A DNA stretch of 32,415 nucleotides from a virus. Position 1 is the stretch's first letter, and each line of letters opens with the position of its first letter. The DNA lies in IMG/VR virus record IMGVR_UViG_3300037137_000410, positions 1 to 32,415 of that record. One strand, written 5' to 3'. Of this stretch, positions 9,894 through 25,302 are shown piece after piece. Both the position numbers and the translations under genes were made by a program. Below the pieces are notes generated by a model. That model saw nothing but the letters and a program-made list of their open reading frames with translations, searched no databases and was not told the DNA's origin.

Positions 9894-10089
9894 GCCCCGC
9901 CAGGATCGTCTCCCGCCAGGTCACAATCGGCTTACGCTGCCCAAAGCGCCGCAGCGAGGTCATCAGGTCGGTCACCTGCGGCTCGCCGTGGCGATTGTAG
10001 TTTTGCGGATGCGCCTGAAGCTCAGCCACCGCCCCGGTCAGCACACCATCGGGAAAGTGGGGACTCTCAGGCGACTTTGCTTTTGTCAT
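9847..10089 (-). pseudogene. ParB-like N-terminal domain, truncated and frameshifted against the MTase
   Basis: The ATG at 10089 overlaps the stop of the upstream gene (ATGA). About 81 residues read as a ParB-N domain: LQAHPQNYNRH, then LMTSLRRFGQRKPIV, then the signature ILAGHGLVEAARRLGWPAVW. After this the frame turns into non-homologous Arg-rich sequence and ends at 9472, while the MTase continues in another frame. In intact relatives the domain runs on for roughly 60-80 residues (DLP..., ADNRLAE...) before the PAEDPGAQLDKAEEL joint. Both that middle part and the frame are missing, which fits a deletion whose length is not a multiple of three. A sequencing error alone would not remove the middle. 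Confidence 0.7.
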
Positions 10090-10796: not shown

Positions 10797-11290
10797 CAGT
10801 GCCCGTTAAGCAAAAGCTGCCCCACCGTGTACAACAACACCACGGCCAGCGCCAGCCCGATGACTGCCACCGCCCACGTCTGCCATCCGACCGCCTGCGG
10901 CCGCTCGATGAAGCGGTCGAGATGCTTCTCCAACGTCGCCAACCGCTGGTTCTGGCTTTCGATCTTGACCATCAGCTCCGCCACGTCCGCACGTAACTCA
11001 TCCATATTGCGCACCATGCGCTCGATGCCCGCTGGCCCCCAGTCATTCATCGGCAGCCCGGGCTGGCTGGTAGATTGCGTTGTGCGAGCATTGCGCGCCG
11101 CCCGGTCAAGGTCTGCGTATCGGTCATGTCGATTACACCATTCGATGAGCGCCTGCACGCGTGCGGCTTTGCCGCTATCTGGTGCGCCTAAATCCTCAAA
11201 CGGAATGTTGAGGTCGAACGCCAGCACCCGCAATTCTGTATCCGAAAACTTCTCGGCCAGAAACGTGCGTAGCTCGGCTGCCGTCATCAT
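10796..11290 (-). CDS. Membrane-anchored protein with an effector-associated (death-like) domain
   Basis: Protein of 164 residues (two ATGs in a row at 11290 and 11287; no clear ribosome-binding site, so probably coupled to the upstream gene). Residues about 4-66 (LRTFLAEKFSDTELRVLAFD, then NIPFEDLG, then KAARVQALIEWCNRHDRYADL) follow the helical pattern of bacterial effector-associated domains: F..eEL..L.fdL.i..e.L....k..r...Li....r..r...L. These are adaptor domains described in conflict-system ATPases, proteases and other effectors. Residues about 88-128 form a coiled coil and about 136-158 a single transmembrane helix, with a 6-residue tail. Finding an EAD on a phage membrane anchor is unusual. 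The EAD call is by pattern and moderately sure; the subfamily is not assigned. Confidence 0.72.
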   Translation of the reverse strand: MMTAAELRTFLAEKFSDTELRVLAFDLNIPFEDLGAPDSGKAARVQALIEWCNRHDRYADLDRAARNARTTQSTSQPGLPMNDWGPAGIERMVRNMDELRADVAELMVKIESQNQRLATLEKHLDRFIERPQAVGWQTWAVAVIGLALAVVLLYTVGQLLLNGH

Positions 11291-11296
11291 CAAAGG

Positions 11297-11536
11297 TCAT
11301 TTGCGCACCGGGGAGGGCACGAGCATCCCGATCAGCCCGCCCACCACGGCCGACGGCACGGCGATCAGAAGATCCGAGCCGGGCTTGCCCTGGTAGCTGA
11401 GCAGGCCCACCAACAGGATCGCCGTCATCATGGCCGCACCCAGGAAACCCACCACCAGCCGATACAACAGCGGATCGGTCGCCTGCGATGGCGGCGGCTC
11501 AACTTCCCGGGATATCTGCCGTGCTGGGTCATCCAT
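11297..11536 (-). CDS. Small two-helix membrane protein, holin-like candidate
   Basis: Protein of 79 residues with CGGAG before its ATG. A polar N-terminus of about 25 residues (MDDPARQISREVEPPPSQ) is followed by two hydrophobic segments: RLVVGFLGAAMMTAILLVGL and LLIAVPSAVVGGLIGMLV, ending in SPVRK. Length, two membrane spans and a basic tail are compatible with a class II holin. Many unrelated small phage membrane proteins look the same, and no endolysin gene is recognisable nearby. It is the first gene of the leftward packaging/head operon and lies just past a terminator. Confidence 0.7.
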   Translation of the reverse strand: MDDPARQISREVEPPPSQATDPLLYRLVVGFLGAAMMTAILLVGLLSYQGKPGSDLLIAVPSAVVGGLIGMLVPSPVRK

Positions 11537-11847: not shown

Positions 11848-11960
11848 TCCCCTAGACGTAAATCTCCCCGCAGAAGTTACGGCGCCGTGTTGATAACATC
11901 CGTTCTCGCTTCAACCGGAAATCTATTGACAAGGCGTGCGCGCCAACGCACTATGCGCGC
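11830..11960. promoter_or_regulatory. 11-bp inverted repeat, candidate operators
   Basis: GCGCGCATAGT at 11830-11840 and its exact reverse complement ACTATGCGCGC at 11950-11960. The first arm lies inside the spacer of the leftward promoter. The second lies 20 bp after a lone TTGACA at 11926-11931. Two identical opposite arms flanking a promoter fit a repressor that binds both and loops DNA. Confidence 0.5.
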
Positions 11961-12092
11961 TCCGGTAACCCCGAAGGCCCCCCAAAAGCGGCCCATCGCG
12001 ACTTTGTACACCCCTCTGTTGTGATAATACAAATTCCAGCAACACGGGCTGATCTCCAACCTTAACGTTAGCGCACTTCGCCACATTGGGTA
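11848..12092. other. Intergenic control region between divergent transcripts
   Basis: No convincing gene. It holds the distal operator-like arm, a TTGACA at 11926 without a good -10, and one reversed copy of the polar motif at 12017. A short minus-strand frame (11877-12086) shows no family features. This is the most likely genetic-switch region of the element. Confidence 0.6.
12017..12027 (-). repeat. Polar intergenic motif, the one reversed copy (TTATCACAACA on minus)
   Basis: One mismatch and on the opposite strand to all other copies. It is followed on the minus strand by GAGGGG, much as the 12401 copy is followed by GGAGGGG on plus. Confidence 0.65.
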
Positions 12093-12121
12093 TTGACAAT
12101 GATAATGAGCTATGATATATG
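12093..12121 (+). promoter_or_regulatory. Rightward sigma70-like promoter
   Basis: TTGACA at 12093-12098, a 17-bp spacer, then TATATG at 12116-12121, in a locally AT-rich stretch. Predicted start near 12128, about 30 nt before the ATG of the 12161 gene. It probably drives the central plus-strand block. Confidence 0.7.
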
Positions 12122-12160
12122 TATCTCAGAATAACGATTCGATGGATGAGCGGAGGTTAT

Positions 12161-12391
12161 ATGGAAGAAACCAGCAAGGCGATTTTTACCACCGTCAGTT
12201 TTTTCCCATCGCAGAAGCAGATCGTGGCCGACTTTGCCGCGCAGGATCACAGATCGTTTTCCAATGCGTTGCAGGTCATCGTCGAGGATTGGAAGCGGAT
12301 GCGTGAGGCGCTTGCCGATGGGCGGATGGTGGTATTGCAGATCAGGCCCGAGGATCGTCAGCCGATCAGTAACCAGATCGGATTGCAGTGA
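12161..12391 (+). CDS. Ribbon-helix-helix-like small regulator candidate
   Basis: Protein of 76 residues from the ATG at 12161, chosen for the GCGGAGG ribosome-binding site; the frame extends to 12119 without one. The sequence fits a strand-helix-helix plan: AIFTTVSFF (strand), PSQKQIVADFAAQDHRS (helix), then SFSNALQVIVEDWKRMREAL (helix). This is the layout of CopG/Arc-type DNA-binding dimers. It is the first gene after the rightward promoter and beside the operator-like inverted repeat, the expected place for an autoregulator. No direct motif proves DNA binding. Confidence 0.75.
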   Translation: MEETSKAIFTTVSFFPSQKQIVADFAAQDHRSFSNALQVIVEDWKRMREALADGRMVVLQIRPEDRQPISNQIGLQ

Positions 12392-12400
12392 GAATCTTGA

Positions 12401-12411
12401 TTATCACCACA
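12401..12411 (+). repeat. Polar intergenic motif, copy 6 (exact)
   Basis: Exact TTATCACCACA, followed at once by CGGAGGGG, the ribosome-binding site of the 12424 gene. Confidence 0.8.
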
Positions 12412-12423
12412 CGGAGGGGACTC

Positions 12424-12504
12424 ATGGAAGCCTTTCTCATGCTCATGGTGGGCTTCATCGCTATGATCATCCTGGCCTTGATCTGCGCTGCCGGGATCCT
12501 GTAG
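12424..12504 (+). CDS. 26-residue single-helix membrane peptide
   Basis: ATG preceded by CGGAGGGG. The product is one almost uninterrupted hydrophobic segment (FLMLMVGFIAMIILALICAA) with one Glu near the N-terminus. It is followed without a gap by the 12505 gene (TAG then ATG). The very strong ribosome-binding site and the tight spacing to two further small genes support it as real. Membrane peptides of this size act in toxin, lysis or regulatory roles; none can be chosen here. Confidence 0.6.
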   Translation: MEAFLMLMVGFIAMIILALICAAGIL

Positions 12505-12618
12505 ATGCTCGCCAACATCGCACTGTTCATCGGCACATTCGTCATCTGTTCGGCCATACTCTACGGCAGCCTGTGGCTTGCTCGTCATCTCGACGACACC
12601 AACGAGGAGGATCGATGA
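12505..12618 (+). CDS. 37-residue single-helix membrane peptide
   Basis: Starts on the base after the previous stop. Residues 1-27 form a hydrophobic span (ANIALFIGTFVICSAILYGS) followed by a charged tail (ARHLDDTNEEDR) that would face the cytoplasm. The last codons supply the GAGGAGG ribosome-binding site for the next gene, whose ATG overlaps this stop. Translational coupling makes the three genes one unit. No family is recognised. Confidence 0.6.
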   Translation: MLANIALFIGTFVICSAILYGSLWLARHLDDTNEEDR

Positions 12619-12821
12619 AACTCAACACCGCCAAACGTCTGATCGTCGCCGCCGGCATTCTTGCCACCCTGCTCGCACCGGCCGCCGTCCACGCTGCGCC
12701 GGCGCAGAGCAACAGCGCCCGTATCTGCGTCGCGTGGCGCAATCAGTGCATCGCATACCGCTACGTGTTCGGCATCAAGTATTGCACGGTGCATCAGTTT
12801 ACGTGCATCCGGTGGCTGTAG
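12615..12821 (+). CDS. Small secreted four-cysteine protein
   Basis: Protein of 68 residues. The N-terminus is a textbook signal peptide: MKLNTAKR, a hydrophobic core (LIVAAGILATLLAPAAV) and a probable cleavage after HAA or AHA near residue 28. The mature part is about 40 residues with four Cys (ICVAWRNQC, KYC, FTC) and many aromatic residues, suggesting a small disulfide-bonded domain. It follows two membrane peptides in a coupled operon just after the putative regulator. It could be exported to the envelope or medium; role unknown. A lysis-accessory, superinfection-exclusion or signalling peptide are all open. Confidence 0.7.
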   Translation: MKLNTAKRLIVAAGILATLLAPAAVHAAPAQSNSARICVAWRNQCIAYRYVFGIKYCTVHQFTCIRWL

Positions 12822-12842
12822 AGGCACTCCCATGACCCGCCG

Positions 12843-13136
12843 TTGGTCCACTCTCTTCGACATCGCGAAAACCAAGCCGCCGAACTCACCAGGTCGCCTG
12901 GTCGACCTGGTGAGCGCACCTATCGCAATAATCGCCTGAATCTCGATCTGATCCTGTGGCATGACGGGGATGAATCGTGGAAGCTGACCATCAAACGCGC
13001 CGGGTCCATGCCCGATGCTGGCGCTGTAGCCTTCGCCCGCGCCGCCTACCGCGTGCCCGATGAAGCCGTCGAACGGCCGTTCACCAACCGGCGTGAAGTA
13101 TCGCCCAAAACCGGCGTTACCAGGGGCTGGACTTGA
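12843..13136 (+). CDS. Hypothetical protein with uncertain start
   Basis: The frame is open from a TTG at 12843 to 13136 (97 residues). From about residue 26 it looks like real protein: YRNNRLNLDLILWHDGDESW, KLTIKRAGSMPDAGAVAFARAAY, ending in a polar tail. The start is unclear. The only good ribosome-binding site (GAGG) serves an ATG at 12832 in a different frame, giving a 35-residue product that ends at 12939. A frame change within the first 70 bp, near a perfect hairpin at 12886-12913, is possible. No family is recognised. Confidence 0.45.
   Translation: MVHSLRHRENQAAELTRSPGRPGERTYRNNRLNLDLILWHDGDESWKLTIKRAGSMPDAGAVAFARAAYRVPDEAVERPFTNRREVSPKTGVTRGWT
12886..12913. repeat. Perfect 11-bp inverted repeat
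   Basis: TCACCAGGTCG (12886-12896) and CGACCTGGTGA (12903-12913) around a 6-nt loop. No T-run follows, so this is not a classic terminator; it could be an operator or an RNA hairpin. Confidence 0.6.
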
Positions 13137-13295
13137 TCTGGAGAGAGACCGTGTAATCAGACTGTGCCGAGAGCGCCTATCTCAGATTTCCTCCCTCCAA
13201 GACGAGACTGACTGCAAACCAAATGAGGTCCTCCTTTTCTGAGATAGACGCTTTCTGGACAGCCTGAGAACCTGTCCGGTTCCTCCTTTTTGTTC
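13137..13295. other. Non-coding region upstream of the integrase, candidate attP region
   Basis: No convincing gene. It contains the inverted repeat CTATCTCAGA (13177-13186) / TCTGAGATAG (13238-13247) with a 51-bp interval, and a pyrimidine-rich stretch. Palindrome-rich DNA next to an integrase gene is where phage attachment sites usually lie, but no core can be named without the host junctions. Confidence 0.4.
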
Positions 13296-13325
13296 GCCGT
13301 GCTGGGATGTGGGTCCCAGCACGGC
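13296..13325. repeat. Perfect 12-bp inverted repeat before the integrase gene
   Basis: GCCGTGCTGGGA (13296-13307) and TCCCAGCACGGC (13314-13325) with a 6-nt loop. It ends 14 nt before the integrase ATG and just before its AAGGA ribosome-binding site. It could be an mRNA hairpin or a protein-binding site. Confidence 0.65.
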
Positions 13326-13339
13326 AGAAGGAAAACATA

Positions 13340-14470
13340 ATGCGCACCATCACAGAAACCGATGTCGATCTATCGGACGCACCCATCATCGTGATTCCCG
13401 ATGAGCGCGTCGAACTAGACTGGTATGTCGCACCAGAAGAGCGCGAGATGTATGCCGTGTGGCAGGAATGCCGCCGGCAGTGGCTCAACAGCATCGAGCG
13501 CAAATCCGGCAAGCGCAATTCACGCCGCGCTTACGATCGGGATGTGATCCAGTTCTTCATGTTCTTTAGTCTGCAGAATCTCCATGAGTGGCAAGTAAAC
13601 AAAATTCACGCCGCCATGTGGGTTGAGGGCATGGCCGCCGAGGGGCTGGCGCCCGCAACCATCAATCGCAAAATCGCCGCGCTCAGCTCATTCTATCGCT
13701 ACGCCTCCAGTGATTTTGTTACGACTACCGGCGATGGCCTCTGGTCACACGCCAACCCGTTCAGCTCACGGAGCATCCGCTACAAGGTGGAGCCTTACGA
13801 GAGAGCCGTCTATCCGTCCACCGATGATGTGGCCGCCATCCTGCGCCAGATCGACACCAAAACGCTGGTCGGGCTGCGCAACCTCACCATCATCTCCGGC
13901 ATGTTTGCCACCGCCCGCCGCGTCTCCGAGTGGCTTGGCCTGCGCTGGGGCGATCTGCACAACAGCCCCACCGGCTACTGGTTTGATTACGTCTACAAGG
14001 GCGGCTTACACCGCCGCCAGGCCATTCCCGGCCACGTTTGGGAGCTGATCCAAAAGTACCTCGTAGCATCGGGCCGGTGGGGGACGATGGCCGCCAGCGA
14101 TTACGTGTTCATCGCCCACGATGGCTGCGCTGCCAATCTGAAGACAAAGGACGGCGCGCCGCTCATCCCCAACTATCACCTGGGCGAGCATCCCCTCAGC
14201 GCCTCCTACGTCAACGCCCTGCTCAAACGTTACGGCCTATCGGCCGGCGTCGATGAGGCGCTGTGTCACAATCATGGCCTCCGCCATGCCGGGCTGCGCG
14301 CTCGCAAAGACGACGGCGCCGACATCTTTGAGCTTCAGAAGACCGCCGGCCACAAGTCGATTGCTACGACGCAGATCTACACCGATGCGGTGCTCACCAC
14401 CCCCACCGATGACCGCGGGGATCGCATCGTCGGCCACGTCATGCCCAAACAGTTGAAATTCAACGTCTGA
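13340..14470 (+). CDS. int: Tyrosine recombinase / phage integrase
   Basis: Protein of 376 residues from the ATG at 13340 (AGAAGGA upstream; an in-frame ATG at 13307 lies within the hairpin and lacks a ribosome-binding site). Residues about 35-150 form the SAM-like core-binding domain (SRRAYDRDVIQFFMFF, then ATINRKIAALSSFYRYA). The catalytic domain shows Arg in ATARRVSEWLGLRW (about 194), Lys in VYKGG (220), HGLRH (His 312, Arg 315), AGHKS (His 338) and the nucleophile Tyr in QIYTD (347). All catalytic residues are present, so it should be active in site-specific integration or excision, or in dimer resolution. No excisionase is recognised, though small neighbours could serve. Confidence 0.93.
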   Translation: MRTITETDVDLSDAPIIVIPDERVELDWYVAPEEREMYAVWQECRRQWLNSIERKSGKRNSRRAYDRDVIQFFMFFSLQNLHEWQVNKIHAAMWVEGMAAEGLAPATINRKIAALSSFYRYASSDFVTTTGDGLWSHANPFSSRSIRYKVEPYERAVYPSTDDVAAILRQIDTKTLVGLRNLTIISGMFATARRVSEWLGLRWGDLHNSPTGYWFDYVYKGGLHRRQAIPGHVWELIQKYLVASGRWGTMAASDYVFIAHDGCAANLKTKDGAPLIPNYHLGEHPLSASYVNALLKRYGLSAGVDEALCHNHGLRHAGLRARKDDGADIFELQKTAGHKSIATTQIYTDAVLTTPTDDRGDRIVGHVMPKQLKFNV

Positions 14471-14478
14471 TCCCGTTG

Positions 14479-14500
14479 GGGCGATCCTGCGTGATCGCCC
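14479..14500. terminator. Hairpin after the integrase gene
   Basis: GGGCGATC (14479-14486) / GATCGCCC (14493-14500) with a 6-nt loop, 9 nt past the integrase stop. There is no T-run, so termination is uncertain. Confidence 0.4.
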
Positions 14501-14516
14501 GTTGCGAGAACTGGCA

Positions 14517-14527
14517 TTATCAGAACA
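14517..14527 (+). repeat. Polar intergenic motif, copy 7 (TTATCAGAACA)
   Basis: Two mismatches. It precedes the GGAGAGG ribosome-binding site of the 14545 gene. Confidence 0.6.
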
Positions 14528-14544
14528 AACGTAGGAGAGGAACC

Positions 14545-14850
14545 GTGGAAACGAGTAGCATCCTATTCGGGATTCTTTTGGGCCTGGCGTGGGGCATCGC
14601 CTACGCCGCGTTTCTGGAGTTCACCGCCGTCGGCCGCTACATCGTCGAGCGCGTCACCTGGCTCAGCGTCGTCATCGGCGTCGGCTGCGATCTCCTGATC
14701 GCCGGGCCCTTCATCGGCTGGCCCGTCGTCCTGGCCCTGGGCGCCATCATCGGCGCATCGTCCGTCGGCATCATCGCCCGCTCGCTGATCCACTACCAGA
14801 AGAATCACGACGCCTTTCTGCGCATTCTGGATCACGAGGATGGCGAATGA
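14545..14850 (+). CDS. Small membrane protein, two to three helices
   Basis: Protein of 101 residues from a GTG start with TAGGAGAGG upstream. Hydrophobic segments lie near residues 6-26 (ILFGILLGLAWGIAYAAFLEF), 39-59 (WLSVVIGVGCDLLIAGPFIGW) and 61-81 (VVLALGAIIGASSVGIIA). The C-terminus is polar (YQKNHDAFLRILDHEDGE). No family is recognised. It ends in an ATGA overlap with the next gene, so the two are probably translated together. Confidence 0.7.
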   Translation: METSSILFGILLGLAWGIAYAAFLEFTAVGRYIVERVTWLSVVIGVGCDLLIAGPFIGWPVVLALGAIIGASSVGIIARSLIHYQKNHDAFLRILDHEDGE

Positions 14851-15134
14851 TGGCGACACCCACCAGGCTCGCCAACAAGACGCAGTGGGCGCTCGATGAC
14901 ATCATGCAACACTGCCGGGAGGCGCAGACGGCGTGGCAAGCCGTATACAAGCTCGCAAAGGCGCGCATGGATCCGGCCATGCTCGCCGGACTGGCCGAAC
15001 TCCGGGACGAAATGGCAACCGTCGAACGCCTGGCGCGCATGGCCCGCGCTGGAGAGTACGATTACGACGGAGAGAGGAACGAAGAGGCCATTGGCACATC
15101 GGGGGAACGGACTACCTCCAGGTCGAGGGAATGA
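14847..15134 (+). CDS. Hypothetical helical protein
   Basis: Protein of 95 residues whose ATGATG start overlaps the previous stop, with GAGGATGG as ribosome-binding site. The N-terminal 70 residues look all-helical (TQWALDDIMQHCREAQTAWQ, then DPAMLAGLAELRDEMATVERLARMA), followed by an acidic, disordered tail. There is no known domain. Coupling to the membrane protein suggests a joint function. Confidence 0.65.
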   Translation: MMATPTRLANKTQWALDDIMQHCREAQTAWQAVYKLAKARMDPAMLAGLAELRDEMATVERLARMARAGEYDYDGERNEEAIGTSGERTTSRSRE

Positions 15135-15212
15135 GATCAACCGTTCCCCCGTTAAACCGAACGCCCCCAGGGGCCGTCCTGAGAGCGTTCGCGCCGCACC
15201 ATCACGCACGGA

Positions 15213-15236
15213 GCAAATCGAGTATAGCAGATTTGC
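15213..15236. repeat. Small inverted repeat
   Basis: GCAAATC (15213-15219) and GATTTGC (15230-15236) flanking GTATAG, in the 124-bp gap before the 15259 gene. It is a possible operator around a weak -10-like sequence; no good -35 is seen. Confidence 0.35.
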
Positions 15237-15258
15237 CCCGCTTTGACAAGAGGGGAAC

Positions 15259-15477
15259 ATGCCTGACGACACCGCGTACTTTTGGTTCGGAACGCTGAAC
15301 ATCGACCAAGCCCTGCACGCCTTCGAAGCGCACACTGGCCGGCCCGCCACGCAGCTCATCTGCCGCACGGCCGACGAGTTGGTCGTCGCCGCCCAGTTGC
15401 GGCCCGAGGGCGTGGAACTCCACGCCAACAACTACGTGCAGCGCGGCACGCTCTACGTCGCGGCCGAGGCCGCATGA
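15259..15477 (+). CDS. Hypothetical small protein
   Basis: Protein of 72 residues with AGAGGGGAAC before the ATG. A mixed alpha/beta sequence (DTAYFWFGTLNIDQALHAFEAH, then LICRTADELVVAAQLRPEG) suggests a compact globular domain. Its stop overlaps the start of the next gene (ATGA). Family unknown. Confidence 0.68.
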   Translation: MPDDTAYFWFGTLNIDQALHAFEAHTGRPATQLICRTADELVVAAQLRPEGVELHANNYVQRGTLYVAAEAA

Positions 15478-15713
15478 GGCTCTGCCGCTGGTGGCAGACC
15501 GCCCCACATGGCTGCGGCCTGTCAAATGCCAACGGCTGCACATTCTGTAAGGAGCAACAAACGATGGAACTCGAACCTACGATCCGGGAACTCAGACAGG
15601 TGATCAAAGACCTGGCGCAGCGCGTCACGGACATCGAGGAGCGGATGGACAAGTACGATGTTGACCAGGCCCTGGCCGAATCTGTGGCGCTCTACACGCC
15701 CGCACAGAGCTAA
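15474..15713 (+). CDS. Small protein with four-cysteine N-terminus and coiled-coil C-terminus
   Basis: Protein of 79 residues if it starts at the ATG overlapping the previous stop. The N-terminal 30 residues contain four Cys (LCRWW, HGCGL, GCTFC), which could bind zinc. From residue 31 a highly charged helix follows (ELEPTIRELRQVIKDLAQRV, then DIEERMDKYDVDQALAES). An internal ATG at 15564 with GGAG at 15550 would give only the 49-residue helical part. Both starts look usable, so the gene may make two products. Function unknown. Confidence 0.6.
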   Translation: MRLCRWWQTAPHGCGLSNANGCTFCKEQQTMELEPTIRELRQVIKDLAQRVTDIEERMDKYDVDQALAESVALYTPAQS

Positions 15714-15749
15714 CGTTCTGTATCGATAAGCAGACTTCTGGCAACAACA

Positions 15750-15773
15750 CCGCCGGCGCTGATACGCCGGCGG
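15750..15773. terminator. GC-rich hairpin
   Basis: CCGCCGGCG (15750-15758) and CGCCGGCGG (15765-15773), 9-bp perfect stem and 6-nt loop, in the 122-bp gap after the 15713 stop. There is no T-run; it may stop or pause transcription. Confidence 0.4.
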
Positions 15774-15835
15774 GACCGTGGCAGAGGGATTGCCCACGGG
15801 TGAACCTATCATAGCACAGAGCACAGAGGGATAAC

Positions 15836-16285
15836 ATGACCATCGACACCTTCCCGACGGACACGTTAGCCGACTTCGAGACCATCGACGTCGACGGCGG
15901 CGCCGTGCCCATCGTCACAGCTTTCGTCCACGGCCAGCCCGCCCCGCTGATCGGCGACATGATCGCGTCCGCGTGCGATCACGCCGGGGCCACCTGGTCC
16001 AGCGATCTCGCGCTGCGCTGCCCATTCTGCGGCGTGCCGCTGTTCCTGCCGCCGCGGCTGTTGGCGCATCTACCGGAGCAGCGCATCGAGCAGATGTTTC
16101 GGTTATGGCAGGTCGCGGGCTGCCCCCCCTGGTATCCCAGTGGCTGGGGCATCACGCCGGGCTACTGGACCGTGCTACCTATCCGGCAATTCGCCAAGAC
16201 CGGCGGTCTGCCGGTGCTCAACGAGCGCGTTGCGAGCATCCGTGAGGATGTCCGCGCGGTGCTATCGGCGCTGGGGTCGTCCTGA
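15836..16285 (+). CDS. Hypothetical protein with a CPFCG knuckle
   Basis: Protein of 149 residues; AGAGGGATAAC precedes the ATG. A single CxxC (LRCPFCGVPLFLPP) near residue 61 resembles half a zinc ribbon. The surrounding region is aromatic-rich (CPPWYPSGWGITPGYWTVLP). The N-terminus is acidic and the C-terminus helical. The gene ends 1 nt before the start of the FtsK-like gene, so they are co-transcribed. No known family is recognised. Confidence 0.7.
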   Translation: MTIDTFPTDTLADFETIDVDGGAVPIVTAFVHGQPAPLIGDMIASACDHAGATWSSDLALRCPFCGVPLFLPPRLLAHLPEQRIEQMFRLWQVAGCPPWYPSGWGITPGYWTVLPIRQFAKTGGLPVLNERVASIREDVRAVLSALGSS

Positions 16286-16286
16286 G

Positions 16287-17801
16287 ATGCAGCAGTCTAT
16301 CGATGGCAAAACGAGTACCAGCAATGGACGTGTGCAGGTCGTGGTGTTTACGATGGCGTGCATCGTCTTGATGCTCGGCGGCCTGATCCTGGTCATGTGG
16401 TTCGACCCGGATAACGTCCGGGCGCGCAATGCGCTAACGCCGGACTCGATCAATGTGCAGCGCGGGCTGCTGTACGTGGGCGCACTGGCGCTAAGCATCT
16501 TCCTGCTGGGCGAAGCTGCGGGACGCGCCCGCTGCCGCTGGAAGAGCGCCAGGCACATCTACGCCCATGAGGGCCTGCTGCCCGCCGTCGAGCGCCGCGA
16601 CGGCACCCTGGACACCAGCCACATCGTCGATGCTGCGCAAATCATGGGCGCCACAGTCGGCGGCCTGGGCCATGTTGACCGCCTGCCCGGCGCGGGCATG
16701 AAAGAGGCTGTCCGACTGCCGGAACTCATGGCGCCTGAGCCTGTCAAGATCAGCGTCACGCCCGACCAGATCCTCGACGGCTACGTCCCGCAGCGCGAGC
16801 CGCACTGGCTGTTACTCGGCGAAACCGGCTCGGGCAAATCACGCGCCGTGATGCACATCGCCGACAGCATCGCCCACCGCTACCCAAGCCAATTTCTGGT
16901 TGCCGAACGCGGCGGGATCGACTGGAACACGCAGGCCGACGCGCACACCGTGCAGGGCTATGCCGAACTGCTGGATGCCGTCGAAAGCGAGCGCCAGTAT
17001 CGCGCCGGCCTGCTGCGCGCCAATGACGTTGACCACGTGCTACGCCTCAACGAGCCGCTGCCGTTGCTGGTCGTGATCATCGAGGAGGCCGAAAACATCT
17101 ACAAGCGACTTTTTGAAGCCGACCGCGCGCAAGCCAAACGCTTCGAAGCGACCCTGCAGGATCTGGCCGGCCTGGGCCGCAAACAGGGCATCGTGCTGAT
17201 CGTCGCCACGCCGACCGGCACGTCCAGTGTGTTCGACGGCCCGACGCGCCGCAACCTGGGTAACAAGCTGATCTTCCGCAGTGAGGTCATCGTGGGCGAT
17301 CAGTGGGGCATCCCGCGTGACGTGAATCTAGCCAAGCTACCGTCTGGCACGGCCTACACCACGAAATACGGCTGTACCGTGGCATTCCCGTTGACCAGTC
17401 GGCCCAAGCTGCCCAAATCCCGGCTCTACCACGAAGAGGACGAAATGCTGGAACTGCCGGTCAACGCGACCGCCGATGACGTAGACGGCGTAGATCTGCC
17501 GGATAGCCCGCACGAGTTGCCTGACAACCAGACAACGGTTGTGCCAACCACAACCGCCGACAACCGGTCAAATCGGGGAGTGTATCAGACGGTTGTGCCG
17601 GTTGTGCGCGGCCCGTTCGGTATTCCGAAGATCAAGAGCCGTAGACCACCGACTGCGGACGAGGCCGGCATGATGCGCGCGGCGTACCGCCGCGGCGCGT
17701 CTATGACGCGTCTCTGCATGGCCGCTTGGGGCTACAAGGACGGCTCTGACACTGAGCCGGTATGGGCATGGATGAAAGACGCACTGGAAGGCAGACTATG
17801 A
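16287..17801 (+). CDS. FtsK/SpoIIIE-like membrane-anchored DNA translocase ATPase
   Basis: Protein of 504 residues. Two hydrophobic segments (about 16-37 and 60-75) anchor the N-terminus. The ATPase has Walker A GETGSGKS (178-185), Walker B LLVVIIEEAE (260-269), a sensor-like VLIVATPT (303-310) and nearby Arg residues (321-322), as in FtsK/HerA-type hexameric motors. A low-complexity Thr/Pro/Asp linker follows (about 400-440). The C-terminal 60 residues (PTADEAGMMRAAYRRGASMTRLCMAAWG) look like a small helical DNA-binding domain. FtsK-type motors move DNA in segregation, conjugation and unit-length resolution. It sits in an operon with small unknown genes, not with the packaging genes. Conjugative coupling proteins are an alternative, but no relaxase is present. 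Confidence 0.85.
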   Translation: MQQSIDGKTSTSNGRVQVVVFTMACIVLMLGGLILVMWFDPDNVRARNALTPDSINVQRGLLYVGALALSIFLLGEAAGRARCRWKSARHIYAHEGLLPAVERRDGTLDTSHIVDAAQIMGATVGGLGHVDRLPGAGMKEAVRLPELMAPEPVKISVTPDQILDGYVPQREPHWLLLGETGSGKSRAVMHIADSIAHRYPSQFLVAERGGIDWNTQADAHTVQGYAELLDAVESERQYRAGLLRANDVDHVLRLNEPLPLLVVIIEEAENIYKRLFEADRAQAKRFEATLQDLAGLGRKQGIVLIVATPTGTSSVFDGPTRRNLGNKLIFRSEVIVGDQWGIPRDVNLAKLPSGTAYTTKYGCTVAFPLTSRPKLPKSRLYHEEDEMLELPVNATADDVDGVDLPDSPHELPDNQTTVVPTTTADNRSNRGVYQTVVPVVRGPFGIPKIKSRRPPTADEAGMMRAAYRRGASMTRLCMAAWGYKDGSDTEPVWAWMKDALEGRL

Positions 17802-18019
17802 GGACAGGTATGCTGCCACTCATCTACCTCATCACATTAACCCGCAACGAGAACGGCCTTTGGCTGGCCGTATTTGGAGACATCGTTGGACAACCGGCCG
17901 ATGATCTACAAGCGGCGCTCGCCAACTTGGCACGACTCCTAGAACTCCATCGCGAGCTAGCCGATCTTCTGTTATCCGAAGATACTTTTCAGCGCTTGAC
18001 AAAAGGATCTCAACCATGA
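17798..18019 (+). CDS. Hypothetical small protein
   Basis: Protein of 73 residues; the ATG overlaps the FtsK-like gene stop (ATGA) and GGAAGG precedes it. It starts with LIYLITLTRNENGLWLAVFGD, which reads as two beta strands with a turn, followed by a helix (DDLQAALANLARLLELHREL). That strand-strand-helix plan resembles HicB-type or antitoxin-like small folds, but no specific motif confirms it. It overlaps the next gene as well, so it is part of the same operon. Confidence 0.62.
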   Translation: MRTGMLPLIYLITLTRNENGLWLAVFGDIVGQPADDLQAALANLARLLELHRELADLLLSEDTFQRLTKGSQP

Positions 18020-18426
18020 CCGCACCAACCATCCTACCCGCCGACCTGCTCGCCCAGATCGGTGACCTGATCACCGCCACCCAAACCGTCAGCGCCGACG
18101 CCGAGAAATGGCGCGAGCTGCTCCGTAAACTCCGGGACGTGGGCTATGGCCCGCAACTCAGCCCGGACCAGATCGCGTATCTCATTCCCAGTGCCCGCTA
18201 CGTCGCCGAGATCGCCGCCGCTAGCCAGGAGGTTCCCGCCGCCAGCGCGGCGCCCAAAAGCGCAGCCGGCAAACGCAAACGGCGGATCATCACCGATCAC
18301 GATCGGGAGATCATCCACCGTGCTCACGCCGATGGCATTAACGTCCAGGCCATCTGCGTGGAATTCGGCTACAGCAAAAGCACCATCGAACGGACCTTGC
18401 ATCCCACCAACGGAGACGGAGCTTGA
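18016..18426 (+). CDS. Helix-turn-helix DNA-binding protein
   Basis: Protein of 136 residues; ATGA overlap with the previous gene and AAAGGA as ribosome-binding site. The N-terminal 70 residues are helical and acidic. A basic linker (KSAAGKRKRRI) leads into a C-terminal helix-turn-helix: ITDHDREIIHRAHADGINVQ, then AICVEFGYSKSTIERTL. The second helix (YSKSTIERTL) is of the resolvase/transposase HTH kind. It lacks a serine-recombinase catalytic domain, so it is more likely a regulator or accessory DNA-binding protein. Confidence 0.75.
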   Translation: MTAPTILPADLLAQIGDLITATQTVSADAEKWRELLRKLRDVGYGPQLSPDQIAYLIPSARYVAEIAAASQEVPAASAAPKSAAGKRKRRIITDHDREIIHRAHADGINVQAICVEFGYSKSTIERTLHPTNGDGA

Positions 18427-18433
18427 TACCCTG

Positions 18434-18742
18434 GTGCTGCGCGCCGGATTGCGCACGCCCACCCCGGCCGGCCTGCTCAGCGCATTGCGCGCCGCCCACG
18501 GCCTGGTCGCGCGGTATACGCCGCCCGCCGCTCTGCCCGATCGGGATGATGATGCGGAGATCGTCCATGTCGTCATCCCGATCGGCCTCGATGAGCGCTG
18601 GTGCGGCCACTGCGGCGAGGTCGTCATGGCCGCGATGGGCATGGCGGGCCGGCTCACTGGCCACGCCGCAGATTGCTGCCGCCGGCCGCAACCCGTTCCC
18701 GTCCTCGAGATCCTCCAGCCGGAGGAATACTACCTGCGATAG
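18434..18742 (+). CDS. Small cysteine-rich (zinc-binding-like) protein
   Basis: Protein of 102 residues from a GTG at 18434 (GGAG at about 18417; a CTG at 18431 is also possible). The reading frame is protein-like throughout: LRTPTPAGLLSALRAAHGLV, then DDAEIVHVVIPIGLDERWC. It has a CGHC pair followed by HAADCC about 20 residues later, a likely zinc site. A competing longer frame over the same bases reads as shadow sequence. Function unknown; several neighbours carry similar Cys pairs. Confidence 0.55.
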   Translation: MLRAGLRTPTPAGLLSALRAAHGLVARYTPPAALPDRDDDAEIVHVVIPIGLDERWCGHCGEVVMAAMGMAGRLTGHAADCCRRPQPVPVLEILQPEEYYLR

Positions 18743-18757
18743 TAGCAGTAATAGACG

Positions 18758-18768
18758 TTATCACCACA
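18758..18768 (+). repeat. Polar intergenic motif, copy 8 (exact)
   Basis: Exact TTATCACCACA, followed by CCGGAG, the ribosome-binding site of the 18783 gene. Confidence 0.8.
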
Positions 18769-18782
18769 CCGGAGCAACCATC

Positions 18783-19022
18783 ATGCCAGACCTACTCATC
18801 CATCTCGAGGCCCTGCTCGCCAGCCACATCGGCGCGCTGTCCCGCCTGCTCGCCGAAACGCGCCGCCTCACGGCCATCAGTGACGGCCCGCGCAGCGCCA
18901 TCCCCTGCAAGTGCCCCCAGGGTCATGCAGGCTCCATCTACTACATCGTCCCCGACGTGGTGCGCTGCCCGATCTGCGGTATCCATGACATCGCCAAATC
19001 AAAGACCGTAGAGCTGCTGTAA
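18783..19022 (+). CDS. Small zinc-ribbon protein
   Basis: Protein of 79 residues with CCGGAG upstream. An N-terminal helix (LLIHLEALLASHIGALSRLLAE) precedes a zinc-ribbon-like region with ligands CKCPQGH and, 20 residues on, RCPICG. Such single-ribbon proteins are common in phage early regions and often bind nucleic acid or partner proteins. It lies just upstream of the replication gene. Confidence 0.68.
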   Translation: MPDLLIHLEALLASHIGALSRLLAETRRLTAISDGPRSAIPCKCPQGHAGSIYYIVPDVVRCPICGIHDIAKSKTVELL

Positions 19023-19044
19023 TACCCATTACAAGGCCATCATC

Positions 19045-19968
19045 ATGCCATATCTCGAATTCGACTTGAACCTACCTAATCACCCAAAGACGGCCTATGC
19101 GGCGCGCCTGGCCGGGATATGCGTCCCGCAACTCATCGGCCATCTCACCTGCCTTTGGGCCTGGGCCATCGATTACGCGCCCGATGGGGATCTCAGCATC
19201 TACCCGCCCGAGGTCGTCGAGTCCGCTCTGCAATGGGCCGGCGAGCCTGGCAAACTGATCGCCGCGCTCACCGGTTGCCGCTTTGGGCCTAAATTCGGCT
19301 TCCTGGAGGCGAACGGCGATGGCTTGCTGATCCACGACTGGTGGGAGCACGCCGGTAAATTGATCGAGAAACGGCGCACCGATGCCGAGCGTAAGCGGGA
19401 ACTGCGAGGCGACAAATCTGATCCGGATCCCGCTCCAGATTCCGTGTCCGATGGACATCCACAGGATGTCGCAGCGCCGTCCGATGGACATCCGCAGGAT
19501 GTCGCAATCCCGTCCGATGGACGGCGCAATATACCAGACCAGACCAAACCAGACCAAACCAGACCAAACCAAACCAAAACCCACCCCACCAGACCGAAAA
19601 AGGGGGGGGGTGGGGGGGTGAAAACGGATGGGAAGGGGGGCAAATCTCCCGGCCCGGAAACCGTACAAGCGCTTTTGACCGATCCCGACGTGGGCATGGC
19701 CCCCGAACGCGCTGAGCAGTTTGCCAAATTGCCGCTTGATGCCGTCCTGGGCCATGTCCTGACCTGGCAGCGCGAGGGCAAAACGGGCGCCGTGGGCATG
19801 GGCGCCTTGATCTGGCGGCTCAAAAATCGCCCCAATGCGCCGGTTTTGACAGATCAGGATCGCACAGCTCCGCTTTACATCCGCTATGTGTTCGGCGGAG
19901 ACAAAGGGGCCGCCGAGGCCGCCGCCAACAAGGCGCGTTATGGCGGCTGGCCGGGAGTGCAGTCGTGA
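19045..19968 (+). CDS. Phage replication organizer-like protein (DnaD/O-like)
   Basis: Protein of 307 residues. The N-terminal 120 residues follow the phage replication-protein pattern: HPKTAYAARLAG, VPQLIGHLTCLWAWAIDYAP, DGDLS, ESALQWAG, GFLEANGDGLLIHDWWEHAG, KRRTDAERKRELRG. Residues about 133-200 are a repetitive linker (DGHPQDVAAPSDGHPQDVA, then Asn/Gln/Thr/Pro-rich, then a Gly run). The C-terminal 90 residues (EQFAKLPLDAVLGHVLTWQR, then GALIWRLKNRP) resemble the helicase-loader-binding half. Such proteins bind the origin and recruit the helicase. As in lambda O, the linker DNA carries repeats that may be the origin. No helicase, primase or polymerase gene is recognisable, so host factors are probably recruited. 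Confidence 0.78.
   Translation: MPYLEFDLNLPNHPKTAYAARLAGICVPQLIGHLTCLWAWAIDYAPDGDLSIYPPEVVESALQWAGEPGKLIAALTGCRFGPKFGFLEANGDGLLIHDWWEHAGKLIEKRRTDAERKRELRGDKSDPDPAPDSVSDGHPQDVAAPSDGHPQDVAIPSDGRRNIPDQTKPDQTRPNQTKTHPTRPKKGGGGGVKTDGKGGKSPGPETVQALLTDPDVGMAPERAEQFAKLPLDAVLGHVLTWQREGKTGAVGMGALIWRLKNRPNAPVLTDQDRTAPLYIRYVFGGDKGAAEAAANKARYGGWPGVQS
19446..19522 (+). repeat. Dyad-bearing direct repeats inside the replication gene (candidate origin)
   Basis: Two 33-bp units (19446-19478, 19479-19511) and a partial third (19512-19522). Each unit contains GTCCGATGGAC (itself a small palindrome) overlapping GACATCC-NCA-GGATGTC, a 7-bp inverted repeat. Iteron-like sites within an initiator gene are a known origin design. 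Confidence 0.6.
19536..19575 (+). repeat. Tandem 10-bp repeat AGACCAAACC
   Basis: Three perfect units at 19541-19570 with partial units on both sides. The strand is almost free of T, so this is a strongly purine/pyrimidine-skewed stretch that may help origin melting. Confidence 0.65.
19602..19618 (+). repeat. Homopolymeric G runs (nine G, T, seven G)
   Basis: Nine G at 19602-19610, then seven G at 19612-19618, both within the replication gene. The frame is open through them. They are prone to polymerase slippage and could form G-quadruplex structure together with the later GGGAAGGGGGG. Confidence 0.7.
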
Positions 19969-19991
19969 ATTTCGAGGTAGGAGCAAGCAAC

Positions 19992-20240
19992 ATGACTCAG
20001 TTAGTCAAACCACAATGTGACGACTCCGAGCCACCTATGGCCCAAGCCACGCGTGAATGCATCCTCGCCATCGGCCTCGACCACCTGGTCGCCGTCGCCG
20101 AGTGGGACGGCTATCTGCGCGCCGTCCTCGCCGACTACCGCCGCCTGAAAGCCGGGGACATCGGCAGCCGGATCGTACCGTCTATCGATAGTATCAAGTT
20201 TTTAAGGGTAGGACTTCTGATACTGGGCTTGACTGCTTGA
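19992..20240 (+). CDS. Small conserved paralog A (WDGYL-AVLADYRRLK family)
   Basis: Protein of 82 residues from the ATG at 19992, chosen for TAGGAG 8 nt upstream; a GTG at 19965 overlapping the previous stop is the alternative. The core (ILAIGLDHLVAVAEWDGYLR, then AVLADYRRLKAGDIGSR) is nearly repeated in the 20589-20795 gene. The C-terminal 15 residues are hydrophobic and differ from the paralog. Family not recognised. The stop lies inside the TGATACTG repeat cluster. Confidence 0.65.
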   Translation: MTQLVKPQCDDSEPPMAQATRECILAIGLDHLVAVAEWDGYLRAVLADYRRLKAGDIGSRIVPSIDSIKFLRVGLLILGLTA

Positions 20241-20260
20241 TACTGCTGAGTCTGATACTG
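20190..20260. repeat. TGATACTG octamer cluster, candidate operators
   Basis: Direct copies at 20218-20225, 20238-20245 and 20253-20260, and an inverted partial copy AGTATCA at 20190-20196. They lie in the end of one gene and the 40-bp gap before the 20281 gene. A local regulator-binding site is plausible. Confidence 0.5.
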
Positions 20261-20280
20261 ACCCTCTGAGGAGTCAAAAA

Positions 20281-20592
20281 ATGCACGGCCCAACCCTGCA
20301 AGAGATCGCCGATCAGATGTACATCACGCTGCAAGCCCGGCCCACGGGCCGCTGCTACCTACAGCTCAAACACGGGCTGGGGATCCAGCTGGAGCGTAAC
20401 GAGGCGGATATGCTGCTCAAGCTCGGACGCCAGAAGGTCTATCCCTCCGTGCTCGAAACCACACTCTGCAAGCGCGCGTTTCGCCTGCACGACGATCACC
20501 CGGATGAGCGCCTTGCCCCAGACGCCAACGGCTGGCACGTCGTCGCCATCCGCTGGCCAGGCGCCAGCCCCGCACCTAAGAGGACATCATGA
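20281..20592 (+). CDS. Hypothetical protein between two paralogs
   Basis: Protein of 103 residues with CTGAGGAG before the ATG. Likely helix at the N-terminus (TLQEIADQMYITLQ), then beta-type sequence (RCYLQLKHGLGIQLERNEAD), then a C-terminal GWHVVAIRWPGASP. No domain is recognised. Its stop overlaps the ATG of the 20589 gene. Confidence 0.68.
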   Translation: MHGPTLQEIADQMYITLQARPTGRCYLQLKHGLGIQLERNEADMLLKLGRQKVYPSVLETTLCKRAFRLHDDHPDERLAPDANGWHVVAIRWPGASPAPKRTS

Positions 20593-20795
20593 GCGGCTTC
20601 GCACCCTTGAAGATCACCGATCCCGTAACGGACGCGACACGCGCTCGCATCCTCGCCATCGGCCTCGACCACCTGGTAACCGCCGCCGCCTGGGACGGCT
20701 ACCTCGCCGCCGTCCTCGCCGACTATCGCCGCCTGAAGGTCGAGGATCTCGGCAGCCGGACCGTGCCGCCCGTAGATCGTCCGTTGTCACAGTAA
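20589..20795 (+). CDS. Small conserved paralog B (WDGYL-AVLADYRRLK family)
   Basis: Protein of 68 residues, ATGA overlap with the previous gene, AAGAGGA upstream. The core (RILAIGLDHLVTAAAWDGYL, then AAVLADYRRLKVEDLGSRTV) matches the 19992-20240 product almost residue for residue, so the two arose by duplication. It keeps the core and a short Pro-rich tail, without the hydrophobic end of paralog A. Confidence 0.68.
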   Translation: MSGFAPLKITDPVTDATRARILAIGLDHLVTAAAWDGYLAAVLADYRRLKVEDLGSRTVPPVDRPLSQ

Positions 20796-20801
20796 CGCTG
20801 A

Positions 20802-20812
20802 TTATCACCACA
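20802..20812 (+). repeat. Polar intergenic motif, copy 9 (exact)
   Basis: Exact TTATCACCACA, followed by CTGGAG, the ribosome-binding site of the sulfurtransferase-like gene. Confidence 0.8.
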
Positions 20813-20824
20813 CTGGAGATAGCC

Positions 20825-21970
20825 ATGCAACAACAGCCATCGCTGTTTGAAAATAGTCGTTTACGGCTGGAAGACGCCGTAGAATTGTCCCTGGCGAGTC
20901 TGGCGGCCTATGGCGAAAACTATCCGCATTGGGCGCTCGCATATTCGGGCGGCAAGGACTCATCCGCCACGGTTACGTTTGTGGCATGGGCGATTCGATC
21001 GGGACGTATATCAGCGCCGAAGAGTTTGACTGTGCTTTATGCTGATACCCGCATGGAATTGCCCCCACTACAACGCACCGCGTTCGAGCTCCTGGACCGA
21101 TTACGAGTCGATGGATTTGAGGCGGAGGTCGTCTTGCCGAATATGGATGATCGGTTCTACGTGTATATGCTCGGTCGCGGTGTGCCGCCGCCGTCGAACA
21201 CATTCCGCTGGTGTACTGCGCAACTCAAGATCGAGCCTATGGAGGCGAAACTGCAATCGCTGCGTGAATTGACTGGGCAGAAGCTGCTCATGCTGACTGG
21301 TGTGCGCCTCGGAGAGAGCGCCGCACGCGATCAACGCATCGCCGTCTCGTGCAGCCGAGATGCAGGCGAATGTGGACAAGGCTGGTTCCAGGCCAGCACC
21401 CATGATGCAATTGCCGATACTCTCGCTCCGCTGCTGCACTGGCGTTTGTGCCATGTCTATGACTGGCTGTATTTTGACGAACGGCACAGCTACGATGTAC
21501 GAGACATCGCTGCTGTCTACGGCGACGGCGAGGTGCGCACTGGTTGCGTTGGTTGCAATCTCGCCAGCCGTGATACGGCGCTGGAACGGCTGATCCGCCA
21601 TCCAGACTGGATACATCTGACGCCATTGACGGAATTGCGCCCGCTCTATGCAGAATTGAAACAGCCGCGTTGGCGTAAACGAAAGGCGTCACCCGAGCTG
21701 CGTCAGGACGGAAAGTTTTCCGTCAATGGACAGCGCATGGGGCCGCTGACAATGCCCGGCCGCGCCTACGGACTGGAACGGATACTCGATATCCAGGAGC
21801 GCGCTGGCGTTGATCTCATTAACGCTGAAGAAGAAGCGCGTATCCGGGAGATGTGGGCGTTGAATGTCTGGCCGCAGAAATGGTCAGAGGCCGATATCTC
21901 CGCTGACGTGCCGATTGATCGGATCACGGTTACAGCCGACGGGTTGATCTATGAGCCGCTTCTGATCTGA
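20825..21970 (+). CDS. DndC/PAPS-reductase-like sulfurtransferase
   Basis: Protein of 381 residues; CTGGAG precedes the ATG. The PP-loop SGGKDS (41-46) binds the nucleotide, followed by LYADTRMELPPL (71-82), RWCTAQLKIEP (129-139), LTGVRLGESAARDQR (157-171), ECGQGW (182-187), PLLHWRLCHVYDWL and GCVGCN (240-245). This is the pattern of PAPS-reductase-family enzymes closest in feel to DndC, which activates sulfur transfer in DNA phosphorothioation. Cys 130, 183, 241 and 244 could hold an iron-sulfur cluster. No dndA, B, D or E partner is visible. Base composition is lower in GC than the neighbours, so it may be a late acquisition. Plain PAPS reductase or tRNA sulfur chemistry are alternatives. 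Confidence 0.82.
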   Translation: MQQQPSLFENSRLRLEDAVELSLASLAAYGENYPHWALAYSGGKDSSATVTFVAWAIRSGRISAPKSLTVLYADTRMELPPLQRTAFELLDRLRVDGFEAEVVLPNMDDRFYVYMLGRGVPPPSNTFRWCTAQLKIEPMEAKLQSLRELTGQKLLMLTGVRLGESAARDQRIAVSCSRDAGECGQGWFQASTHDAIADTLAPLLHWRLCHVYDWLYFDERHSYDVRDIAAVYGDGEVRTGCVGCNLASRDTALERLIRHPDWIHLTPLTELRPLYAELKQPRWRKRKASPELRQDGKFSVNGQRMGPLTMPGRAYGLERILDIQERAGVDLINAEEEARIREMWALNVWPQKWSEADISADVPIDRITVTADGLIYEPLLI

Positions 21971-21986
21971 CAACGAGGTCACATCG

Positions 21987-22223
21987 ATGCCCGAAACCTT
22001 GATCGCCCACTGCGGCGCGTGTGCCGGCCGCATGATCATGCGCCAAACCGCCGAAGGCGTCTGGTTTGTCTGCCAGAACTGCCGCACTGAAACCACTATG
22101 CGGCCAACTGCCGCCGAAGCCGGGGAAGATGTAGTTTGGGTCACACTGGCCCAGGAGCAACACTATGAAGACCAAACTGTTGACCATCGCCGCCGAACTG
22201 GCGGAGGATCTGACCGAGGATGA
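21987..22223 (+). CDS. Small zinc-ribbon protein
   Basis: Protein of 78 residues with ACGAGG before the ATG. Two Cys pairs form a zinc ribbon: HCGACAGRMIMRQ and, 15 residues later, VCQNCRTE. Past residue 55 the frame runs 59 nt into the next gene and reads as charged, probably disordered sequence. The overlap is long but both ribosome-binding sites are good. It follows the sulfurtransferase by 16 nt, so a partner role is possible. Confidence 0.62.
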   Translation: MPETLIAHCGACAGRMIMRQTAEGVWFVCQNCRTETTMRPTAAEAGEDVVWVTLAQEQHYEDQTVDHRRRTGGGSDRG

Positions 22224-22722
22224 CTATCGCTGCATCTATGACGAGCTGCGCGAGAAGTGCAGCCTGCGCCAGTTCGCCGAGTTCATCCATTCGGACGTGA
22301 GCCACGCGTGGTGGGGCCGGTATGAGAATCAGATCGTCCAGTTGCATCACGAGCGCCGCAACGAGCTGCGCCGCGCCGTGGGCCTGCCGGAGCTGCCCTG
22401 GACGGTCGCACAGTCGCTCTCGAACGTCTCGCCGAATGCCGCCGTGTGGGCGCTGGGTGAGCAGCCTGCCGAGCATGTGGTGCTGGTTGGCGGCGATGCG
22501 CCGCAGGAACTGACGATGCGCCTAAATGGCAAGCTCACCGTGATCGAGGATGCGCCGCAGGAAGCCCGTGTAATGGGGCTTACACGGCGCAAGACGCACA
22601 AGGTACACAAGACGGTGAATCTGTCCCCCACAACGTGGGAACGCCTCAATACGGCCCGCAAATCAGCCGGGCTGACGTGGGAGCAACTGGCCGCGCAGTG
22701 GGCGGAGACGTTGGCGCCGTAA
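22165..22722 (+). CDS. Putative DNA-binding protein (HTH-like N-terminus)
   Basis: Protein of 185 residues; CCAGGAG precedes the ATG. Residues about 18-75 (YRCIYDELREKCSLRQFAEF, then VSHAWWGRYENQ, then RRNELRRAVGLPELP) resemble a divergent XRE-type helix-turn-helix found in phage and plasmid proteins. The C-terminal 45 residues (KTHKVHKTVNLSPTTWERLN, then GLTWEQLAAQWAE) look like a second strand-helix-helix DNA-binding unit. It is the last gene of the plus-strand block. A regulator role is likely; target unknown. Confidence 0.68.
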   Translation: MKTKLLTIAAELAEDLTEDDYRCIYDELREKCSLRQFAEFIHSDVSHAWWGRYENQIVQLHHERRNELRRAVGLPELPWTVAQSLSNVSPNAAVWALGEQPAEHVVLVGGDAPQELTMRLNGKLTVIEDAPQEARVMGLTRRKTHKVHKTVNLSPTTWERLNTARKSAGLTWEQLAAQWAETLAP

Positions 22723-22728
22723 CTCTCG

Positions 22729-22739
22729 TTATCACCACA
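22729..22739 (+). repeat. Polar intergenic motif, copy 10 (exact)
   Basis: Exact TTATCACCACA in the convergent gap, not before any gene start. Its last three bases are the outer arm of the hairpin at 22737-22763. Confidence 0.8.
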
Positions 22740-22763
22740 GAGGCAGGCAACGCCTGCCTCTGT
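22737..22763. terminator. Strong hairpin between convergent operons
   Basis: ACAGAGGCAGGC (22737-22748) and GCCTGCCTCTGT (22752-22763), a perfect 12-bp stem with a 3-nt loop. There is no T-run on either strand, but the position between the plus-strand block and the leftward tail operon suits a bidirectional terminator. Confidence 0.6.
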
Positions 22764-22819
22764 CACCTCCTCCAATCCCCGGATAGCATCCAACCATAAA
22801 GGCTGCTAAATACTCGACC

Positions 22820-25066: not shown

Positions 25067-25302
25067 AACGTCCTCCGAATGTAGGCGGCGCTGCTCCAAC
25101 CGACCGGCTCAGCGCGCCGCAAGAGGCTGGAGACCATATACCACCCGCCGAACTCCGCCCAGATCAGCAGCGTCTCAGCCATCTGCCACAGTGCCACCGC
25201 CCGCGCATTGATTTCAGGCTGCTCACGGGCATACAACGGCGAGGTAGTCACCCCCTCGCCGATCCCCGCCCCGGTCCAGTTTGCAAGAGGATCAGCGGCC
25301 AT
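25063..25302 (-). CDS. Small hypothetical protein
   Basis: Protein of 79 residues; no strong ribosome-binding site, but it overlaps the lipoprotein gene by ATGA and follows the hub-like gene by 30 nt. The middle is hydrophobic and aromatic (VALWQMAETLLIWAEFGGWY, then MVSSLL), which could be one membrane span or an amphipathic helix. The C-terminus is basic. Unknown function; its place between tail hub and lipoprotein hints at tail or surface biology. Confidence 0.55.
   Translation of the reverse strand: MAADPLANWTGAGIGEGVTTSPLYAREQPEINARAVALWQMAETLLIWAEFGGWYMVSSLLRRAEPVGWSSAAYIRRTL

Follow-up and report, generated by a model that had tools for sequence, protein, structure and literature searches.

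Dif-like sites of 28 bp arrayed along the gene borders of a viral genome that encodes an Xer-like recombinase and a divergent FtsK/TcpA-type ATPase

Our analyses identify, on the basis of site anatomy, an array of 28-bp dif-like sites in a viral record of 32,415 bp (G000, hereafter the window, meaning the whole stretch of DNA analysed), which has terminase and portal among its virion genes and is best explained as part of the genome of a temperate, tailed phage. This array is the finding worth following: the sites occur in about 18 copies, lie almost wholly at gene borders, are conserved in related phages and coincide with several breaks of homology between them. Our confidence is evenly balanced that they constitute dif-like module-boundary sites, whose likeliest user would be the phage's own Xer-like recombinase. 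A broader proposal, in which the whole genome including its virion genes would consist of modules between the ~18 sites, with a recombinase of its own, base-precise swaps of blocks and possibly an FtsK-like helper, is more tentative, and we place it on the doubtful side. It has long been asked how the joints of mosaic phage genomes come to fall so neatly between genes. Recombinase core sites placed by a phage at its own gene borders would offer a direct, testable mechanism for such joints; if true, the dif-module idea would reach from plasmids to viruses.

The element follows the consensus TGtnGCgGtAA-N6-TTATCAccACA, an imperfect dyad of 11-6-11 layout with a variable centre, and the motif TTATCACCACA corresponds to its right, better-conserved arm. 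Across 14 aligned sites, conservation is limited to exactly 28 bp, with no conserved positions in the flanks; TTATCA..AC of the right arm is invariant in 14/14, while the weaker left arm retains G at -16 in 13/14 and AA in all 14. The arms are inverted repeats, the left arms scoring on average +1.8 bits on the right-arm matrix against a background of -17.4, and leave-one-out scores of the sites (19.5-32.1) exceed the maximum of 16.1 reached across 30 simulated sequences. The 11-bp arms, the 6-bp centre and the inner inverted repeat are those of dif and pdif sites: a pdif site (PMC6449649) spans 28 bp, in which a 6-bp centre of variable sequence separates two 11-bp arms with inner inverted repeats, one arm being the more conserved, and dif/pdif site anatomy is also given in PMC5357621. 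Beyond the inner TAA/TTAT, however, the arms of the phage sites depart from canonical Xer arms.

Exact matches to TTATCACCACA number six on the plus strand of the window and none on the minus strand, and allowing up to two mismatches yields 15 sites against 4.05 expected. From such counts the first-pass annotation had described a short strand-polar motif, acting like KOPS to steer the FtsK-like ATPase to a resolution site, a proposal for which the 6:0 count and the presence of an FtsK-fold ATPase and an Xer-like recombinase in one genome both speak. That polarity arose because one arm was scored strictly: over all copies (15 strong and one weak in the window, and two in the bridging part of the sister contig G001, ~18 in total) the orientation is 12:6 and not significant (p = 0.24). 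Furthermore, KOPS are short, non-palindromic, strand-polar octamers, whereas the unit found here is a 28-bp dyad with two arms, placed almost wholly at gene borders, and a Pfam scan of the C-terminal 64 residues of the ATPase (E up to 10) gave no match to FtsK_gamma, as compared with 52.5 bits (4e-14) for a control gamma domain. We consequently reject the KOPS reading on account of the dyad, the 12:6 orientation and the lack of an FtsK_gamma profile match; it is very improbable, and is to be dropped under either of the main readings of the sites. Were it a dimer-resolution site, one copy would be expected, against the ~18 observed. Classical KOPS/SRS octamers are too few in the window for judging. 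In anatomy the motif resembles dif, which completes the trio with FtsK and Xer, and not KOPS.

The centres of 12 of the 15 window sites are intergenic, against 5% expected (P ~1e-13, with gene models that come partly from this analysis), and three sites are internal to ORFs, two of them in structural genes. From the left end, strong sites occupy 513-540 (+, centre GAGTTC), preceding a protease gene, kept in the related contig L254 and missing at that place in the related contig L248; 4542-4569 (+, GTTGCA) and 7173-7200 (+, CCTGCA), the left and right junctions of a block exchanged in L248; 8911-8938 (+, GCTTGA); 11886-11913 (-, CGGATG); 12017-12044 (-, TTTGTA); 12384-12411 (+, TCTTGA); 14500-14527 (+, CTGGCA); and 15719-15746 (-, GTCTGC), the last scoring 25.0 bits from outside the set used to build the matrix. 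They continue with 18741-18768 (+, TAGACG); 20785-20812 (+, CGCTGA); 22712-22739 (+, CTCTCG), between convergent genes; 25304-25331 (+, TCCGCA); 28139-28166 (-, CCGTTC), within the tape-measure gene and at a SNP boundary relative to G001; and 30905-30932 (+, TCGGTC), within a gene, which scores 23.2 bits, likewise from outside the matrix-building set, and has a homologue in L254. The weak site at 2201-2228 (+, CAGTTG) scores 15.2 bits, inside the shuffle range, and is kept in L254. Directly after the site between convergent genes stands a hairpin, GAGGCAGGCAACGCCTGCCTC (22740-22770), a possible terminator. The centres of all 18 copies differ, so that sites within one genome should recombine poorly with each other; the last three centre bases are shared only slightly more often than chance predicts (p = 0.015, in one comparison out of seven).

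The sister contig G001 matches window positions 1-11368 without a difference and 27757-32414 at 99.2% identity, and the 4,298 bp of it that join the two window ends contain the major capsid gene. Since G001 spans both ends, the phage genome would be circular or circularly permuted, with a length of ~36.7 kb. Related phages that carry the 28-bp sites are represented by partial contigs only, L248 (capsid protein identity 86%, six sites) and L254 (88%, seven sites).

Comparison with these contigs places several homology breaks at the sites. The 2.6 kb between portal and terminase (4570-7172, -), a gene block between direct sites, is replaced in L248 by an unrelated block of 5.0 kb, and both junctions fall inside sites: on the left, L248 shares the left arm and the centre with the window but has a different right arm, and on the right it shares the right arm and has a different left arm. 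In the window phage and in L248 alike, the flanking sites are direct repeats. Between the window and G001 there are 27 SNPs in 27757-28143 and none in 28144-32320 (4,177 bp), the last SNP of the cluster falling within the site at 28139-28166. Similarly, homology of L254 to G001 resumes at G001 position 5905, within the G001 site at 5903-5930. L248 has a site with the same centre as the window site at 513-540 (GAGTTC) at a different place, in inverted orientation, and with an 18-bp core in common with the corresponding site of L254. The junctions in L248, G001 and L254 and the different place of the GAGTTC-centred site in L248 all fit recombination in the site centre.

Six of seven gene-border breaks collected by hand lie at or adjoin sites (P ~0.006-0.019 if 33-40% of borders bear a site), a coincidence that is suggestive only, since the sites fill short intergenic gaps and breaks at gene borders therefore tend to fall on them. 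Other breaks lie off the sites, at L248 positions 1495 and 5090, at L254 positions 2055, 3259, 5985, 10782 and 11694, and at window 32306-32321. An extra gene of L248 (988-1482, -), absent from G001, adjoins the site at 971-998 on one side and has no site on the other. Breaks both at sites and elsewhere would also be produced if the sites were boundary sequences offering short homology to general recombination, with no dedicated enzyme; but the 22 conserved positions in ~18 copies, together with the free centre and the dyad symmetry, imply a dedicated binding protein, and we regard this explanation as improbable. Excised circles and alternative junctions were not seen, and there is no known attP/attB pair. 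A cluster of 12 SNPs relative to G001, in 67 bp at the end of the contig (32321-32387), follows 4.2 kb free of SNPs and marks another strain boundary, off the sites.

The candidate enzyme is encoded at 13307-14470 (+), an Xer-like tyrosine recombinase (integrase) of 387 amino acids, whose presence the first-pass annotation had recognised. By motif, its catalytic set is kept (R205, K231, H323, R326, H349 and Y358), and the best NCBIfam match is XerD, with 100 bits over residues 59-360; as this lies under the equivalog cut-off of 329.6, the protein is to be called Xer-like and not XerD itself. The R-K-H-R-H/W-Y catalytic residues and the full-domain match together place it among the Xer recombinases. 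The site at 14500-14527 lies 30 bp past its gene and may represent the attP core. We propose that TTATCACCACA would be an arm of a dif-like core site and would not be read by the ATPase; that the recombinase would act on the 28-bp sites with one protomer bound per arm, in a site-specific reaction; that strands would be exchanged within the 6-bp centre; and that the sites would mark borders where related phages exchange gene blocks, akin to the pdif/dif modules of Acinetobacter plasmids.

The likeness to those pdif-bounded modules is close, extending to the 28-bp length, the 11-6-11 layout, the one stronger arm, the variable 6-bp centre and the many copies bounding blocks. The phage array differs in occurring in a tailed phage, around virion genes, and in its presumed enzyme, which is encoded by the phage in place of the host XerC/D; furthermore, movement of the phage modules is putative. 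An Xer-like recombinase, sites of dif-like anatomy and an FtsK-family ATPase are also common to XerCD-dif-FtsK and to the single-recombinase Xer systems (XerH, XerS, XerA), from which the phage is set apart by having ~18 sites instead of one, by the lack of a detected gamma domain and by the lack of KOPS. Phage-borne integron cassettes (CALINs, with attC sites) are likewise arrays of recombination sites in phage genomes; they form a local array, whereas the dif-like sites are genome-wide, and attC sites act through single-strand folding and do not have the 11-6-11 dif-like layout.

In the main and serious rival to recombination, the sites would serve as operators, bound by a dimeric phage repressor or other regulator (possibly of recombinase fold, as in MrpR) that would silence many gene starts in lysogeny. 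The sites are at gene borders and often just ahead of Shine-Dalgarno sequences, HTH proteins are encoded by the phage at 18016-18426 and 22165-22722, and operators sitting at gene borders would make homology breaks coincide with them. Scattered phage operators are known, as in the 20-30 stoperators along the genomes of cluster A mycobacteriophages (PMC6550527) and in the SPBRE element of SPbeta, a short element repeated intergenically in a temperate phage and bound by MrpR, a protein of tyrosine-recombinase fold (PMC10516654). Stoperators, however, measure 13-14 bp, have no dyad and are oriented with transcription (PMC6550527), whereas the phage sites measure 28 bp, are dyads and are not aligned with transcription. 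SPBRE, at 15 bp, is also shorter than the phage sites, and MrpR has lost its catalytic residues (PMC10516654), unlike the 13307-14470 recombinase, which retains them. One site (22712-22739) lies between convergent genes and two lie in structural genes, positions that fit poorly with operators, and sigma-70-like promoters show no excess in 12000-23000 (2 against 3.5 expected), a count to be read with the possibility that host promoters differ. We judge the operator reading possible but the less probable of the two; were it correct, the phage would harbour a dyad, recombinase-like set of operators of unusual length, of interest beside MrpR.

The gene of the FtsK-like protein that drew attention to this genome (16287-17801, +) is a real ORF encoding 504 amino acids, in which hydropathy confirms two N-terminal hydrophobic helices (residues ~18-36 and ~60-78), as the first-pass annotation had proposed. 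These are followed by the ATPase domain (~168-372), a disordered linker (~373-452) and a three-helix domain (~456-500). Assignment as an FtsK-like ATPase is borne out by Pfam FtsK_SpoIIIE, at 25.2 bits just over the cut-off of 24, and by an AlphaFold model with a confident core (~168-372), for which Foldseek ranked FtsK motors first (match to 6t8b, E = 1.8e-11), with TcpA and EccC after them. The Walker motifs, earlier described as intact, are so only in part: Walker A is present as GETGSGKS (residues 178-185), but Walker B reads hhhhEE, with Glu-Glu at 266-267 in place of the family Asp, and the family QRP motif is replaced by PTG at 309-311, both family residues being kept in at least 90% of the 37 proteins aligned (this protein and 36 viral FtsK-like proteins). 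Because the HerA-FtsK core fold is present despite these losses, we classify the protein as a divergent, membrane-anchored FtsK/TcpA-type ATPase of the FtsK/SpoIIIE (HerA-FtsK) superfamily, which is likely, though not certain, to be active. It has the membrane anchor, superfamily and core fold in common with TcpA, FtsK and EccC, and differs from them in its low identity (16-23% in fold alignments), its altered Walker B and QRP motifs and its C-terminal domain.

The helical nature of the C-terminal segment also holds, the 64 residues folded alone (single-sequence model, mean pLDDT 76) giving three helices without a wing. The DNA binding earlier ascribed to it is hinted at by this single-sequence model through a weak HTH-like similarity, the nearest shape being the IstA HTH (Z 3.9, in a fold search that was not significant). 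FtsK-gamma was absent among the fold-search matches listed for this domain, an absence that excludes nothing. The most likely role predicted for the protein is moving phage dsDNA at the membrane, by which the circular form would be segregated or transferred; assistance in synapsis is possible but unsupported, and any tie between the ATPase and the 28-bp sites would be putative.

As a separate question from the readings of the sites, the ATPase alone might be a coupling protein of the TcpA or Streptomyces TraB type, derived from or serving the transfer of an integrative element and unrelated to the sites. Its best PDB sequence match is TcpA, the coupling protein of pCW3 (E = 5.5e-5), which also ranks high in the fold search, and a relative on a Streptomyces plasmid adjoins a replication initiator, an HTH gene and an integrase, gene kinds with equivalents in the phage. 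Against this, neither a relaxase nor any other transfer gene was identified among the window proteins scanned (part of the ORFs), terminase and portal are among the virion genes on the contig, and the fold search scores FtsK motor structures no lower than TcpA; for the ATPase, this reading is possible though less probable than not.

With the protein query alone, no close ATPase relatives were found in viral contigs; the FtsK proteins retrieved with a two-sequence profile were all distant ones from prophages, ~340-530 amino acids long in most cases, and none had a C-terminal end resembling that of the 16287-17801 protein by inspection, and a search of 32 contigs with related terminases, five genomes and 400 Chloroflexota genomes gave only four distant FtsK matches. 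No integrase relatives were found in viral contigs, and the two in Chloroflexota (30-34% identity) have no matching sites nearby. The 28-bp pattern matched once across the 400 Chloroflexota genomes, about the chance level, and looking de novo for 11-6-11 arrays in contigs whose terminases are 53-66% identical returned only noise. Among the contigs searched, site arrays thus appear confined to this clade, and we found no report of dif-like arrays in tailed phages in the openly accessible literature. Lone TTATCACCACA matches in five other viral contigs were read as chance; the two copies in the contig L204 have the same 28-mer, whose left arm is poor.

Several further features of the window were recorded. 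The octamer GAGCAGGG occurs six times on the minus strand (7281, 7344, 12667, 14217, 18811 and 28072) and never on the plus strand, for which codon use or chance are possible explanations. At 8931-10161 (-), a gene for a DNA methyltransferase (PF01555) and the ORF upstream of it, ParB-like in appearance, lie in different frames and look like one gene split by a frameshift, an arrangement that is identical in G001. A direct repeat of 147 nt with 81% identity (20046-20192 and 20634-20780) stems from two small paralogous genes. Behind the replication gene lies a gene with a PAPS-reductase domain (20825-21970, +), and 22820-25099 (-) encodes a Thr/Pro-rich protein of 759 amino acids with a CBM9-like domain, perhaps involved in surface binding.
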